From: Acidimicrobiales bacterium
GTDB taxonomy: Bacteria; Actinomycetota; Acidimicrobiia; Acidimicrobiales; GCA-2861595
Length of the DNA stretch: 32,463 bases
Reading direction: 5' to 3'
NCBI GenBank assembly: GCA_036262515.1
Contig: DATAIT010000045.1
Span: 1-32,463 of the forward strand
The position numbers were made by a program, and so were the translations under genes. Of the stretch, positions 9,175 to 14,830 are shown piece after piece (within the stretch, counting starts at the first letter, position 1; every line of letters starts with the position of its first letter). Under the pieces are notes generated by a model. That model did not search any database. It saw only the letters and a list, made by a program, of their open reading frames with translations, and was not told where the DNA came from.

Positions 9175-9771
9175 TCAGGGGACGGTGACGGTGAGGGGCA
9201 CGGTGGTCGTCGTGGTGGACGACGCCGTGGTCGTGGTGGACGGAGCCGCCGTCGTGGTGGTTGCCGCAGTGGTGGTTGTGGTGGCCGCCGTGGTCGACGT
9301 GGTGGACGACGAGCTCGAGGTCGTCGACGAGCTGGTGGACGTGGGCAGCGTGGTGGTCGCCGGGTCCTCGGTGCCGTCGTCGTCCTGGGCCTGCGCCCAG
9401 AGGACGACACCGAGCACGACGATCAGCAGACCCAGCAGGATCAATGTGGCCAGCGCCCAGTTGAACGGCGGCGGCCCGACCGGTGCGTACGCCGGACGAT
9501 CGTCGCGCCCGTCGTCGACGATCCGCTCCTCGCGCTCGACCGTCCGCGCCGTGGGAAGGACGCGCGTGGCGTCGGGCGGCGGGGGCGCAACCGGCGGGAC
9601 GGCGGGCGCCGTCGGCTCCGGTTCGGCCGGGACGGCGACGCCGCGGGGCGCTCCGCAGTTCGTGCAGAATCGCGCGTCAGGCGCGAGCTGCGCGCCGCAG
9701 GAGGCGCAGAACGCCCCTGCGCCGGACTCGCGGCCGGCGTCGGGGCCGGGCGGCGGCGGGTGGTCGCTCAT
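9175..9771 (-). CDS. zinc-ribbon membrane protein with Thr/Ser-rich tail
   Basis: 198 residues. The N-terminus carries a double CxxC zinc ribbon (FCASCGAQL ... FCTNCGAPRG), followed by a Pro/Ala linker with TARTVEREERIVDDG. A single membrane helix (WALATLILLGLLIVVLGVVL) comes next, then about 75 residues made almost only of Thr, Ser and Ala. The ribbon should face the cytoplasm and the tail the outside. Function unknown; such proteins may sense or scaffold envelope components. ATG 9771 was chosen because it places the zinc ribbon near the N-terminus; a GTG at 9816 would add 15 residues without similarity. It is convergent with the PBP gene, whose tail has the same composition. Confidence 0.75.
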   Translation of the reverse strand: MSDHPPPPGPDAGRESGAGAFCASCGAQLAPDARFCTNCGAPRGVAVPAEPEPTAPAVPPVAPPPPDATRVLPTARTVEREERIVDDGRDDRPAYAPVGPPPFNWALATLILLGLLIVVLGVVLWAQAQDDDGTEDPATTTLPTSTSSSTTSSSSSTTSTTAATTTTTAATTTTAAPSTTTTASSTTTTTVPLTVTVP

Positions 9772-9817
9772 GGGGGCATTCTTGCCCGTGCCGCGTCCCA
9801 ATGCCGTCACCGACACG

Positions 9818-9823
9818 TAGGGT
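9818..9823 (+). promoter_or_regulatory. candidate -10 box (TAGGGT), leaderless start
   Basis: TAGGGT is followed by exactly 7 nt and then GTG 9831. The same TAGGxT-7-start layout is seen at 12975 and 22837. There is no Shine-Dalgarno, so the MoxR gene is probably translated from a leaderless mRNA. Confidence 0.5.
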
Positions 9824-9830
9824 TGCGGCC

Positions 9831-10919
9831 GTGACCAGCCAGAACACCACGGTGGAGGCGCTCGGCGTGGCCGTCGCCGCCCAGGTGCCCGTTCTGCTGT
9901 GGGGTGCGCCGGGCACCGGGAAGTCGTCGGTCATCCGGGCCCTGGCCGACGCCATGGGCTGGCCGTGCGAGACCGTGATCGCCGCCATCCGCGAGCCCTC
10001 GGACTTCTCCGGCCTGCCCGTCGTCGTCGGCGGGGTGGTGCAGTTCGCGCCGCCTCGGTGGGCCGAGCGGCTGTCGGCGGCCGGACGGGGCCTCCTGTTC
10101 CTCGACGAGATCTCCACCGCCCCGCCGGCCGTCCAGGCCGCCCTGCTGCGCGTCGTGCTCGAGCGGGTGGTCGGCGACATCGAGCTCCCGGGCGACGTCG
10201 TCGTGGTGGCGGCGGCCAACCCGCCCGAGCAGTCGGCCGACGGCTGGGACCTCTCGGCGCCGCTGGCCAACCGCTTCTGCCACCTCGACTGGTCGGTGGA
10301 GCCGGCCGTGTTCGCCCAGGGCCTGGCCGGGGGCTGGGATCCCCCGGTGGTGCCCGCACTGCCCCCGGGATGGGAGCAGGGCGTGGGCCACACGCGCAGC
10401 CTCGTGTCGGCGTTCGTGACCGTCCGCCCCGGGCTCGCCTGCCAGGTGCCCACCGACGCCGCCCACGCCGGGCGGGGATGGCCCAGCCCCCGCACCTGGG
10501 ACATGGCGGCGCGCCTGTGGGCCGCCGCCCAGGCGGCCGGCGCCAGCACGGAAGCGGAGACCGCGCTCATCACGGGGTGCGTGGGCGACGGGCCCGGCGT
10601 CGAGCTCCTCATGTGGGAGATGGACATGGACCTGCCCGACCCCGAGGAGGTGCTGGCCGACCCCGACGGCTTCGAGCTGCCCGAGCGCGGCGACCGCACG
10701 TACGCCCTGCTCTCGGCGGTGGCGTCGGCCGTCGCCGCCCGCGCCACGCCCGAGCGCTGGCTGGCCGGCTGGCGGGTGCTCGGCCGGGCCGGCGAGAACA
10801 CACCGGACGTGGCCGCCGTGGCCGCCCGGGTGCTGGCCGGGTGCCGGCCCGCCGGCGCCGTCGCCCCGCCGGAGGTGAAGCTCTTCGCCCCCCTGCTCAA
10901 GGACGCAGGATTGCTGTGA
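9831..10919 (+). CDS. MoxR-family AAA+ ATPase
   Basis: 362 residues. Walker A is GAPGTGKSS (Lys31), Walker B is LLFLDEI (Asp92-Glu93) with STAPPAVQAALLRVVLERVVG after it, and a sensor-1 type AAANPPEQSADG follows. 'Dxxx-A-P-xxQAALL' and the substrate-loop layout are those of MoxR chaperone-like ATPases, which usually act with a VWA-domain partner encoded next door to mature or remodel a protein complex. The C-terminal lid region (about 200-362) is longer than usual and does not resemble the RavA LARA domain. It heads a unit with genes at 10953, 12198 and 12988; gaps are 33, 6 and 10 nt. GTG 9831 fits the TAGGGT box. Confidence 0.88.
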   Translation: MTSQNTTVEALGVAVAAQVPVLLWGAPGTGKSSVIRALADAMGWPCETVIAAIREPSDFSGLPVVVGGVVQFAPPRWAERLSAAGRGLLFLDEISTAPPAVQAALLRVVLERVVGDIELPGDVVVVAAANPPEQSADGWDLSAPLANRFCHLDWSVEPAVFAQGLAGGWDPPVVPALPPGWEQGVGHTRSLVSAFVTVRPGLACQVPTDAAHAGRGWPSPRTWDMAARLWAAAQAAGASTEAETALITGCVGDGPGVELLMWEMDMDLPDPEEVLADPDGFELPERGDRTYALLSAVASAVAARATPERWLAGWRVLGRAGENTPDVAAVAARVLAGCRPAGAVAPPEVKLFAPLLKDAGLL

Positions 10920-10952
10920 CCTGCGCAGCGGGAGGCCCGCCGGTGGTGCTCG

Positions 10953-12191
10953 GTGACTGACCCGTCACCCGCTCCTGCCGCCCCTTCCGGGCCTGTGCCC
11001 CTGGATGCCCGACGGCTGGCCGTGGCCCGGCTGTGGGCCGTCTCCCGGCATCCGTACCTGGCGGCGGCCATCTTCGCCTCTCCTGTCGTGGCGGTGCCGG
11101 GGCTGGGCAAGGTGACCGTCGACGAGTCGTGGCGGCTGTACGTCGACCCGGAGCTGGTCGAGGAGTGGAGCGTCGAGGTGCTCGGGAGCCTGCTCGTGCA
11201 CCACGCCGGGCACCTGGTGCGCGACCACGCCGGCAGGGCGCGCAGCCTGGGCGTGAGCGAGCACGTCACCAAGGACTGGGCGCTGGCGGCCGACGCCGAG
11301 ATCAACGACGACCTCGTCAACACCGGCCTGCGCCTCCCGTCGGACCCCGTGTTGCCGCAGTCGTTCGGGTGGGAGCCGAGCCGGCTGGCCGAGGAGTACT
11401 TCCACTGCGACCACCCCGACAGCGAGGCCGAGCCCGACTGCGGCAGCGGGGCGGATGCCCAGACGCGGTCCTGGGAGCTGCTGGCCGACCGCAAGAGCGG
11501 CCTTCCGCCCGGGGAGCGCCACCTCACCCGCGCCCAGGTGGCGTCCGACGTCCTGCGCTACTGCGAGGAGGGCAGGGGCCGGATGTCGAAGAGCTGGCTG
11601 CGGTGGGCCGAGGACATGCTCGACCCGCAGGTGGACTGGCGGCGGGTGCTGGCGGCCGAGATCCGCAAGGGCGTCGGCACCGTCGCCGGGCTGGTGGACT
11701 ACACGTACAAGCGGCCGTCCCGCCGGGCCGCCGCCACGCCCGCGGTGGTGCTGCCCGCCATGGAGCGGCCCGTCCCCGAGGTCGTGGTGCTGTGCGACAC
11801 GTCCGGCAGCATGGGGGAGCGGCAGCTGAGCCGCCTGCTGGCCGAGGTCGACGGCCTGCTGCGGGGCGTCGGACTGGCCCGCAGCCGCCTGCGCGTGCTG
11901 GCCGTCGACGCCGCCGTCCATGCCGTGCAGCGGGTGTCCAGCGGGCGCCGCCTGGAGCTGCTGGGCGGAGGCGGCACCGACATGGCCGCCGGCGTGCAGG
12001 CGGCGGCGAAGCTGCGTCCCCGCCCGTCGGTGATCGTCGTGCTCACCGACGGTCTCACGCCGTGGCCGGCCGCCGCGCCGAAGGGGATCGCCGTCGTCGT
12101 GGGCCTCATCGGCGGCGGGCGGGCCAGGGGCAACCGGGCCTGGCAGCCCCCAGAGTGGGCGCGGGTCGTCTCCATCGACGACGTCGCCTGA
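10953..12191 (+). CDS. VWA-like protein with DUF2201-type metallopeptidase domain, altered motif
   Basis: 412 residues. The N-terminal half resembles the putative metallopeptidase domain DUF2201: a helix with LLVHHAGHLVRDH and then WALAADAEINDDL. The expected HExxH reads HHAGH (His83-His84-Ala-Gly-His87), so the catalytic Glu is replaced by His and the domain may be inactive. The C-terminal half is a VWA domain with an intact metal site: DTSGS at 282-286, a Thr in GGGGTDMAAG and an Asp in VVLTDGLTPW. Proteins of this layout are paired with MoxR ATPases, as here. GTG 10953 gives a short Pro-rich N-terminus. Domain assignment of the VWA half is firm; the DUF2201 half is from pattern recognition. 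Confidence 0.82.
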   Translation: MTDPSPAPAAPSGPVPLDARRLAVARLWAVSRHPYLAAAIFASPVVAVPGLGKVTVDESWRLYVDPELVEEWSVEVLGSLLVHHAGHLVRDHAGRARSLGVSEHVTKDWALAADAEINDDLVNTGLRLPSDPVLPQSFGWEPSRLAEEYFHCDHPDSEAEPDCGSGADAQTRSWELLADRKSGLPPGERHLTRAQVASDVLRYCEEGRGRMSKSWLRWAEDMLDPQVDWRRVLAAEIRKGVGTVAGLVDYTYKRPSRRAAATPAVVLPAMERPVPEVVVLCDTSGSMGERQLSRLLAEVDGLLRGVGLARSRLRVLAVDAAVHAVQRVSSGRRLELLGGGGTDMAAGVQAAAKLRPRPSVIVVLTDGLTPWPAAAPKGIAVVVGLIGGGRARGNRAWQPPEWARVVSIDDVA

Positions 12192-12197
12192 GCCGCC

Positions 12198-12977
12198 GTG
12201 CCCGCACGAGACCGCTGGTGCCATCACGTGCCGCCCGCCACCGCCACCGTGGCCTGCAGCGGTGAGGAGCACCGGGTCAGCTGGCGGCGGGGGAAGCTGA
12301 AGGTCGAGGACCACGACCTGGCCGCCGAGCGCACCATGCTGGCCCTCGGCGGCGAGACACCGGCGTGCCTGCAGGTGATGACGCTGTGGCGGAACCTGCA
12401 CTCGTGGGCCATGTCGGGCCAGCTCCTCCTCCAGATGCAGTCGCGCCTCGGCCCCGACAAGCTCCTCGCCCCCGGCGACCTGCGCCGGGTCAGCGATCTC
12501 GGCCTCCTGCTCACCTGGGAGCGGGAGTGGCGGCGGTCCCGGTACTACTCCGAGCACGGCCGCCTGCTCCACGAGCAGCTGCGGTCGAGGGCCATGGCAC
12601 CGCTGCGCGAGCACCTCAAGTGCTGGCTGGCCCGCAACGGCTCCCGGAGGATTTCCAAGCTCGATCTCGAGCTCGGCCGGCGCGCCCAGCCTCCCTCGGT
12701 GCGCGGGCAGATGGACTCCGTGGGGGTGCGGGCCACCGCCACGCTGGGCGTGCGGTGGATGGTCGAGGTGTGGGCCAGGGGCCTCGACGTGGTCGACGGC
12801 GCGTTCGTCCTCGAGGTCAGCGGGCAGCCGGTGCGCAGCGTCCCCGAGGTGGCGCGCGTGCGGGCCGTGCGGTGGGACCCGCAGGGCCCGGACCGGTGGG
12901 GGCCGGTCGCCGCCCCGGCCCTGGTGCAGCGGCTCCCGGCGGGCGACTGGCGCCTGGAGTGGGATCGGGACCCGTAG
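12198..12977 (+). CDS. unknown protein in the MoxR/VWA unit
   Basis: 259 residues, rich in Trp, Arg and Leu. No domain is recognised. It begins with a Cys/His pair region (RWCHHV ... VACSGEEH). Its middle is strongly helical and basic (LLLTWEREWRRSRYYSEHG, EHLKCWLARNGSRRISK), and its end has beta character (GVRWMVEVWARG, FVLEVSGQPVRSV). No signal peptide or membrane helix is seen, so it should be cytoplasmic. GTG 12198 lies only 6 nt after the VWA gene stop, which argues for cotranscription and a role as substrate, adaptor or partner of the MoxR/VWA pair. This is inference from position only. Confidence 0.6.
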   Translation: MPARDRWCHHVPPATATVACSGEEHRVSWRRGKLKVEDHDLAAERTMLALGGETPACLQVMTLWRNLHSWAMSGQLLLQMQSRLGPDKLLAPGDLRRVSDLGLLLTWEREWRRSRYYSEHGRLLHEQLRSRAMAPLREHLKCWLARNGSRRISKLDLELGRRAQPPSVRGQMDSVGVRATATLGVRWMVEVWARGLDVVDGAFVLEVSGQPVRSVPEVARVRAVRWDPQGPDRWGPVAAPALVQRLPAGDWRLEWDRDP

Positions 12978-12980
12978 GCT
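12975..12980 (+). promoter_or_regulatory. candidate -10 box (TAGGCT) inside the operon
   Basis: TAGGCT overlaps the TAG stop of the preceding gene and ends 7 nt before ATG 12988. The intervening TGGAGTC has a GGAG too close to the ATG to work well as a ribosome site. An extra leaderless transcript for the last gene is possible. Confidence 0.45.
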
Positions 12981-12987
12981 TGGAGTC

Positions 12988-13731
12988 ATGCCGGCTCCGG
13001 TGCTCGACGCCACGTCCGGCCTGCTGGCGTTCATCCGCTACGGCTTCATGCCGAACCACCTCGGCTACTGCGGCGGCAACGACCAGGACGTCCTGTTCGA
13101 GTCCGCCGTCACCGGGCGGGCCGAGCGGGGGCTGGCGCCGCTGCTCGCCAAGTTCACCGGCGCGGTGCCGTATCTACGGACGATCGCCACCGCCAACGGC
13201 ATCGGCGACCCGTTCGAACGGCGCGTCGTCGACGCCTACTGGCTCGGCAACGACCTGCTCGACCATGTCGAGGCCAGCGCCCTGAGCCGCTCGCTCGAGG
13301 AACGCTTCGGCCGCCAGCTCACCGGCCGCTTGCGCGACGAGGTGCTGCGCAAGGCGCCCGAGGGAGCGCGGCCCCACCACCTGTTCCACGTCCTCGACGT
13401 CTACCGGCGACTGGAGGCCAAGGAGATCGGCATGGCAGCCATGGAGAGCTGCCGCATCAGCTGGGGCCGCGTGCGCGCCGTCGAGCCCGCCGCCCTCGTG
13501 GTCGAGCGCCAGCCCCTGGTCGAGCGGGCCGGGAAGCTCGAGCTCGGCCCCGTCGCCGTCGAACGGGTGCTGCGGACGCTGGAGGGCCAGGGGTTCACCG
13601 ACGACGTCGCCGTGGACGACTGGGTGTCGATCCACTGGGGCTGGGCGTGCGAGGTCCTCGACGACGGGCGGCTGGCCGGCCTGCGCCGCTGGTCGGCTTA
13701 CCACCTCGCCCTGGCCAACCAGACGATCTGA
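12988..13731 (+). CDS. DUF6390-like protein
   Basis: 247 residues, cytoplasmic, no known catalytic motif. The N-terminal signature LLAFIRYGFMPNHLGYCGGND, then LLAKFTGAVPYLRTIATANGI and VVDAYWLGNDLLDHV, resembles what I recall of DUF6390, a family of unknown function seen near [NiFe]-hydrogenase genes in actinobacteria. The C-terminal half has HHLFHVLDVYRR and paired VEPAALVVERQPLVERAG, ending DWVSIHWGWACEVLDDG. No hydrogenase gene is in this window, so its pairing here with MoxR/VWA is notable: MoxR/VWA systems often help metal-enzyme assembly. The family name comes from memory and needs a profile search. Confidence 0.6.
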   Translation: MPAPVLDATSGLLAFIRYGFMPNHLGYCGGNDQDVLFESAVTGRAERGLAPLLAKFTGAVPYLRTIATANGIGDPFERRVVDAYWLGNDLLDHVEASALSRSLEERFGRQLTGRLRDEVLRKAPEGARPHHLFHVLDVYRRLEAKEIGMAAMESCRISWGRVRAVEPAALVVERQPLVERAGKLELGPVAVERVLRTLEGQGFTDDVAVDDWVSIHWGWACEVLDDGRLAGLRRWSAYHLALANQTI

Positions 13732-13766
13732 CCGCCTCCTCCGGGAGCGAGCCGGAGAAGGGTCAG
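13728..13766. terminator. two-part hairpin between convergent genes
   Basis: CTGACC (13728-13733) pairs with GGTCAG (13761-13766), and CTCCGG (13739-13744) with CCGGAG (13752-13757). The structure overlaps both stop codons. There is no T-run, so it may be a rho-independent-like bidirectional pause or simply a transcript end structure. Confidence 0.4.
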
Positions 13767-14830
13767 CCGTCGAGTTGGGTCGTGGAGTAGAGCCCGCCCC
13801 GCAGGAGCCACCGGAAGGCCCGGAGGCGCTCGGAGGTGATGTTGAGCGACACCTCCACGCCGTCGGTGTCCGCCGAGCGGGCGGCGGCGAGCTCGCACAG
13901 TCTCCGGTAGATGGTGGCGTGGCGGTCGGCCTCCGCCTCGACGGTGGCGCGCGGCAGCCATCCGCTGCGGGCGAGAACGGCCCGCGTGTTCTCCGGGTCC
14001 GGGAAGCACAGGATGCCGCTCAGCACGGTGGGGTCGACCGCCTGGTCGTAGGGCGGCAGCTCATCGAAGAGCTCGAGGGTCCAGGCCAGGACGGCGGCAC
14101 CCTCGATCTGCCAGCTGCCGAAGGCCAACTCGGACTCCTCCACGCCGCCCGCCGGGCGTCGCAGGATCGTCGTCTCGTGCGGCTCGAGCTCAGCCGCCAT
14201 GCCGATCGACGTGATCCAGCGGGCGATGCCTTCGCGCGCCTCCTCCTGGTCCTTTCCGTCGTATTCGGTGAGCGTCCGGGCGGCCACCGCCAGCAGGGCC
14301 ACGAGACGCCCCTGGATGCGGACGTGCGAGGGGTCGAGCGGCTTGCCGCCGTCGGCCACGAGGAGGTCGGTGGAGCCGAGGACCTCGCCCATCATCGACA
14401 GCAGGCGGCCGTTGTGGAGATCGAGGATGAAGCCGTCCACCCGGGCGGCCACGTCGAGCGCCACGCTGGCCAACGGACCGGTGGGACGCAGGTCGTCCGG
14501 GTCGCCGGGCACGAACGACACGGCGATCTGGAGGTGGTGGATCGATTCCAGCACCCTCGGAAGCCCGGGCCCGCGGATCGACGAGACGACGTCGTCCCAC
14601 ACCTGGCGGCGGGCGGGGGTGGCCCGGTCGCCGTCGAAGGCTGCGGTGTCGATCTCGACGACGAGGGCGGGCGGCGTCCGGTGGAACACGCCCTTCTTCG
14701 CGCCGACCGTCACCCGGAACTTCGATCCCTTGCGCTCGACGGTCGCCCCGGGGAACGACCGGGCGACCTGGAGGGCGATGCGCCCGGGCTCGCCCTTGAG
14801 CCCGTACACCTGCAGCGGCGAGTCGGGCAT
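13763..14830 (-). CDS. DUF4272-domain protein
   Basis: 355 residues, no signal peptide. The C-terminal 190 residues match the pattern of DUF4272: a helical 'RLVALLAVAARTL ... ITSIGMAAELEPHE' segment, then the characteristic SWQIEGAAVLAWTLELFDEL and a late AEADRHATIYRRLCEL. The N-terminal half (LQVYGLKGEPGRIALQVARS ... VVEIDTAAFDGD ... HHLQIAVSFVP) is a separate alpha/beta region that I do not recognise. Function of the family is unknown. ATG 14830 has AGGGG 8 nt upstream. It is the last gene of a minus-strand operon and faces the MoxR/VWA unit head-on. Confidence 0.75.
   Translation of the reverse strand: MPDSPLQVYGLKGEPGRIALQVARSFPGATVERKGSKFRVTVGAKKGVFHRTPPALVVEIDTAAFDGDRATPARRQVWDDVVSSIRGPGLPRVLESIHHLQIAVSFVPGDPDDLRPTGPLASVALDVAARVDGFILDLHNGRLLSMMGEVLGSTDLLVADGGKPLDPSHVRIQGRLVALLAVAARTLTEYDGKDQEEAREGIARWITSIGMAAELEPHETTILRRPAGGVEESELAFGSWQIEGAAVLAWTLELFDELPPYDQAVDPTVLSGILCFPDPENTRAVLARSGWLPRATVEAEADRHATIYRRLCELAAARSADTDGVEVSLNITSERLRAFRWLLRGGLYSTTQLDG

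Follow-up and report, generated by a model that had tools for sequence, protein, structure and literature searches.

An undescribed three-gene MoxR–VWA–X module recurring across actinobacteria and on some plasmids

Genes and features of the locus

The window analysed here is the whole 32,463-nucleotide stretch of contig 45 (DATAIT010000045.1, assembly GCA_036262515.1) from the 3.41 Mb draft genome of an Acidimicrobiales bacterium. Between positions 9831 and 13731 it carries four forward-strand open reading frames that are all coding by codon usage and are separated by gaps of 33, 6 and 10 bp. The features of the locus are as follows:

9831–10919, forward: MoxR-type AAA+ ATPase P0001, 362 aa, GTG start, assigned by Pfam; member of the conserved triad
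10953–12191, forward: DUF2201-type protein P0002, 412 aa, with a putative metallopeptidase-like N domain and a C-terminal VWA domain
11199–11213, forward: HHxxH motif (H83–H87) in the DUF2201_N domain of P0002
11796–11810, forward: MIDAS motif DTSGS (D282–S286), intact, in the VWA domain of P0002
12198–12977, forward: X (P0003), 259 aa, third component of the triad, without a Pfam, NCBIfam or PADLOC family
12255–12368, forward: signature domain of X, C20-x4-H25-x13-H39-D40-x3-E44-x12-C57
12988–13731, forward: DUF6390 protein P0004, assigned by Pfam, a hydrogenase-linked passenger
13594–13668, forward: HypC/HupF-like segment towards the C-terminal end of P0004 (residues 203–227), a sub-threshold Pfam match
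about 13763–14770, reverse: DUF4272 gene, convergent with the four genes (Pfam E 6e-14)

The initial annotation had described four tightly packed genes in one direction, with a third gene unlike any known family, a DUF6390-like fourth gene and no metal-enzyme client nearby. These points are borne out: no such client was seen among the genes neighbouring the four, no Pfam family matches X over its cut-off, and P0004 matches DUF6390 (PF19927) with 207.8 bits against a cut-off of 25 (E 2.4e-61), a family that tracks [NiFe]-hydrogenase. The start codon of P0002 is uncertain within 10953–11001. A pattern search, uninformative at this GC content, returned no promoter or terminator at the locus. On the other side of the MoxR gene, a divergent reverse-strand gene (9175–9775) has an apparent zinc-ribbon start and a Thr/Val-rich tail.

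P0001 retains intact Walker A (GAPGTGKS, 9903–9926) and Walker B (LLFLDE, 10092–10109) motifs and is 90% identical to the MoxR protein of a genome of the same family (G003). It matches AAA_5 (E 1.9e-9) and bpMoxR (PF20030; E 2.8e-9, 36.8 bits, cut-off 27) over the Pfam cut-offs, the latter match being unspecific because AAA_5 and Sigma54_activat score equally high; PADLOC returned generic AAA matches only. P0002 is composed of a DUF2201_N domain (E 6.5e-27) followed by a DUF2201 (VWA) domain (E 3.8e-20) whose match reaches residue 409 of 412. It also matches VWA_CoxE over the Pfam cut-off, gives, like X and P0004, nothing beyond sub-threshold matches in NCBIfam and PADLOC, and is 84% identical to its G003 counterpart. 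The N domain of P0002 lacks the HExxH motif of an active metallopeptidase, the usual catalytic Glu being replaced by His. This HHxxH form occurs in the window and in most members from Acidimicrobiia and Solirubrobacteraceae, and HExxH in Streptomyces-type relatives. The pattern suggests that catalysis was lost and the metal ligands retained in the HHxxH clade, where this N domain probably serves as a platform for metal binding without proteolysis. AlphaFold modelled the VWA protein poorly (pLDDT 51.8), and that model was left unused.

The signature domain of X is nearly invariant among its homologues (C20 in 64/65, H25 in 64/65, H39 in 69/69, D40 in 63/69, E44 in 68/69 and C57 in 69/69). An AlphaFold model of medium confidence (pLDDT 75.9, pTM 0.55) places a beta-meander and a helix round the signature, together with one long helix and a C domain rich in beta structure. 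Since this model is of medium confidence, and a PDB sequence search and a fold search with X gave nothing significant, the case for metal binding is one of residue conservation; on that ground, the X domain, a proposed small docking domain, probably binds metal (C-H-H-C). In X proteins from Acidimicrobiia the signature lies near the N terminus. Streptomyces-like X proteins have 230–620 residues and carry it in their C-terminal half, in one case followed by ankyrin repeats. Profile comparison links the two groups over 78 columns (probability 95.7). A GTDB scan with a 14-sequence X alignment found close relatives in Acidimicrobiales/Acidimicrobiia and other Actinomycetota metagenome-assembled genomes (MAGs).

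Conservation of MoxR, VWA and X

Adjacent MoxR, VWA and X genes were found at 38 loci, 36 by profile and two (L134 and L211) from reading neighbourhoods, with low-GC loci searched in six frames. Twenty-six lie outside Streptomyces-like genomes, in the order MoxR-VWA-X and including one Solirubrobacteraceae MAG; ten lie in Streptomyces-like genomes, in the order X-MoxR-VWA; and two are on Streptomyces plasmids, where tblastn with X had given no match and a later profile search detected them. Among the ten Streptomyces-like loci, only one pair has flanking genes in common, and the chromosomal sites differ. In one of these triads (L137, genome G457, 9324–11020) the MoxR gene is split across two open reading frames, possibly by a frameshift or an assembly error.

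Within the order, 35 of 298 genomes contain X at E 0.01; within the phylum, X was detected in 15 of 396. With X taken at E 1e-5, 28 of the 298 genomes have both X and VWA, 4 only X, 5 only VWA and 261 neither (Fisher p 4.7e-30, uncorrected for phylogeny). X occurs without a detected VWA protein in G034, G202 and G229, the further X-only genome being a contig-end case; VWA occurs without X in four genomes of family f19 and in G258, and at three of the four f19 loci the third gene is clearly another one, of ~350 aa. Because either is found alone in some genomes, X and VWA are not strictly obligate to each other. Unlinked co-occurrence is seen in four f59 genomes and G090, where X and the MoxR-VWA pair lie on separate contigs. 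Tree distances correlate at 0.93 for MoxR/VWA, 0.94 for VWA/X and 0.83 for MoxR/X (uncorrected for phylogeny), and divergence rates increase in the order MoxR < VWA < X.

Clustering of neighbours within six genes of X left three gene families, those of MoxR, VWA and X, that span 10 or 11 taxonomic families of Actinomycetota; the remaining shared neighbours are limited to one to three. An undescribed three-gene MoxR-VWA-X module is thus common to many actinobacteria and to some plasmids. The initial annotation had proposed an undescribed four-gene unit facing a DUF4272 operon, to be checked by the joint conservation of its members. Genes 1–3 are conserved together, and the proposal of an undescribed module stands for them, but not for the four-gene set: DUF6390 adjoins only 2 of the 38 triads and is absent from G001, a genome of the window's genus whose neighbourhood is the same and whose triad is intact. 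The convergent DUF4272 gene is present in the window, but its status as a neighbour is limited to one family; as candidate partners, DUF4272 and the upstream PBP1 were rejected, their synteny being confined to family f1.

Relatives of the MoxR-DUF2201 pair also occur with other genes. Rhodococcus, Mycolicibacterium, Mycobacterium and Cellulosimicrobium plasmids (L220, L222, L223, L226 and L229) carry a related module without X, in the constant order MoxR, DUF2201 VWA, a ~60 aa protein, a ~390 aa protein and a helicase-like ATPase. On a Euzebya pacifica plasmid (L225, 4733–10672), the pair is immediately followed by a DNA cytosine methyltransferase, an AAA ATPase and the DNA-modification protein DpdB. 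Other third proteins at MoxR-VWA loci, found in f19 (L259, L260 and L261, ~350 aa) and f75 (L202 and L203), likewise have Cys/His clusters, e.g., CDWC and CRRC with His nearby. Phages (L228 and Thermus, Vibrio and Pseudomonas jumbo phages) encode distant DUF2201/VWA-like proteins as well; the one in phiFa lies close to a gene for an AAA+ ATPase.

A candidate three-component machine and its alternatives

MoxR-VWA pairs are widespread, and few have an identified partner. Our best reading is that the triad is a MoxR-VWA machine outside the four published classes, with X-domain proteins as its clients or adaptors. That MoxR, the DUF2201/VWA protein and X form a self-contained three-component machine acting on an X-domain partner has, in our estimate, about an even chance of being correct. 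Established MoxR-VWA biology (PMC13036017, PMC7159879) leads us to infer a ring ATPase with a VWA co-chaperone for the triad: MoxR would, as usual, assemble into a hexameric ring, and the VWA protein, whose MIDAS site is intact, would use that site to grip a partner for remodelling by ATP hydrolysis. We propose the X domain as this partner because the machine is single and X can be multiple, and because the signature is constant and the remainder of the protein variable. Two genomes (G303 and G318) have six X matches each, some of them partial, versus one DUF2201 protein, and three f40 genomes (G044, G123 and G153) have three X versus one VWA each. At one G303 locus (L147, 6135–8757), three X genes lie in tandem 3' of a single MoxR-VWA pair. 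A single machine might accordingly serve diverse X proteins, switching or loading them, the client role of X and its metal binding both being predictions.

A more specific version of this proposal is offered tentatively, as it is rather less probable than the general one: the triad could represent a fifth MoxR-VWA ternary class, distributed over Actinomycetota and plasmids, in which a 40–50 residue Cys/His docking domain plugs diverse proteins into a shared DUF2201 pseudo-metallopeptidase ATPase. If so, those MoxR-DUF2201 relatives that come with another third protein would point to a general actinobacterial switch. The X family is now defined by a testable signature, and the triad is a naturally minimal three-gene system, some genomes combining one machine with several X proteins.

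Some of the same observations would fit an accessory conflict or stress module, a mobile MoxR-VWA switch with X as its sensor or effector arm, much as in ternary conflict systems. The varied chromosomal sites and plasmid carriage of the triad agree with such mobility, as do the relatives that have a different third gene on plasmids of Rhodococcus and Mycobacterium and the Euzebya plasmid relative beside a DNA methyltransferase and DpdB; the rate order resembles the fast evolution of vWA and VMAP in those systems (PMC7159879), and the ankyrin-repeat fusion of one X points the same way. However, X has no PADLOC match and no VMAP, iSTAND or effector domain, defence genes are not conserved nearby according to the neighbour clustering, and single Acidimicrobiia-like families retain the neighbours of the locus, which looks vertical. 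We consider this explanation unlikely. A cofactor-insertion pair similar to CoxD-CoxE or NorQ-NorD, serving an unlinked metal enzyme with X as adaptor, is in our view about as unlikely. It draws on the VWA_CoxE match, on the precedent for MoxR-VWA metal insertion (PMC13036017) and on the possible metal site in X, but enzyme genes do not recur near the triad across 11 families and unrelated genes flank the X paralogues. The neighbours of lone X paralogues were rejected as clients: read by eye, they are unrelated enzymes, argininosuccinate synthase and orotidine decarboxylase being two examples.

The remaining alternative concerns the fourth gene. DUF6390 occurs in 12 of 99 relatives searched and lies behind the triad only in the window genome (G000) and G003. 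All 12 DUF6390 genomes have a match to PF00374, compared with 39 of the 99 overall (hypergeometric p 4e-6), and so do all six further DUF6390 genomes. Close relatives of P0004 (65–77% identical) stand alone at other sites in four genomes. More distant ones have operon neighbours whose sequences, from which the subunits were named, read as a multi-subunit [NiFe]-hydrogenase, an endopeptidase and HypC. Weak HypC/HupF matches fall at the same C-terminal place in five DUF6390 proteins (E 0.069 to 4e-4, sub-threshold in Pfam), and hhalign aligns DUF6390 with a HypC-like profile over 24 columns (probability 79.5). Co-occurrence, operon context and this segment together link DUF6390 to hydrogenase, and the segment makes it a candidate for a diverged hydrogenase maturation protein. 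Searches of one literature library found no paper on DUF6390 and, for DUF2201/VWA-like wording, nothing relevant by title.

A unit of all four genes for maturing or repairing [NiFe]-hydrogenase, in which the triad remodels the enzyme and DUF6390 acts as a HypC-like helper, would further suit the presence of at least two [NiFe]-hydrogenases in the window's own genome and of DUF6390 in every f13 and f29 genome examined that has a close X, but is highly improbable given the rarity of DUF6390 beside the triad, the lack of a triad in 7 of the 12 DUF6390 genomes among relatives and the lack of a PF00374 match over cut-off in 15 of 20 further triad genomes. Because of this last count, the triad does not serve hydrogenase maturation in general, and the maturation role suggested at the outset falls in the hydrogenase case. 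At this locus DUF6390 is a passenger, at most co-transcribed with the triad; genome profiles give it a functional context separate from the module that it neighbours.

Comparison with known systems

Gene 4 resembles the DUF6390/HypC hydrogenase maturation proteins in its family, its tracking of hydrogenase and its HypC-like segment; the difference is that here it is no conserved part of the MoxR-VWA-X module.

Published MoxR-vWA ternary conflict systems comprise the VMAP, iSTAND, FtsH and beta-propeller classes (PMC7159879). The triad shares with them a compact block of MoxR, VWA and one class-defining third protein, the slowest evolution in MoxR and a bpMoxR match over the Pfam cut-off, and its X-MoxR-VWA order in Streptomyces-like genomes equals the VMAP-MoxR-vWA order of the VMAP system. 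It differs in its VWA protein, which is of the DUF2201 type (DUF2201_N followed by a DUF2201 VWA domain) without a beta-propeller or effector, and in X, which family searches show to be unrelated to VMAP-C, STAND and FtsH and in which effector domains were not found. Specifically, X has no VMAP-C domain over the Pfam cut-off, and neither X, by Pfam, nor any other conserved neighbour supplies a STAND NTPase or FtsH AAA+ protein. MoxR of VMAP systems has an N-terminal extension with WxhapG and PsWRxa motifs (PMC7159879); P0001 has 24 residues ahead of Walker A, both motifs being absent there. PADLOC defence models gave no match for VWA, X or DUF6390. The tested defining features of the four published classes are therefore absent, bar the unspecific bpMoxR match, which is the feature of the beta-propeller system.

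With NorQ-NorD, CoxD-CoxE and RavA-ViaA, the triad has in common the pairing of an AAA+ ATPase with a predicted VWA co-chaperone and the VWA_CoxE-like match. In contrast to the linked client enzymes of CoxD-CoxE and NorQ-NorD, the triad alone recurs among its neighbours, and it differs from all three systems in having no client enzyme gene nearby, and in its regular third protein X and the metallopeptidase-like N domain of its VWA protein.
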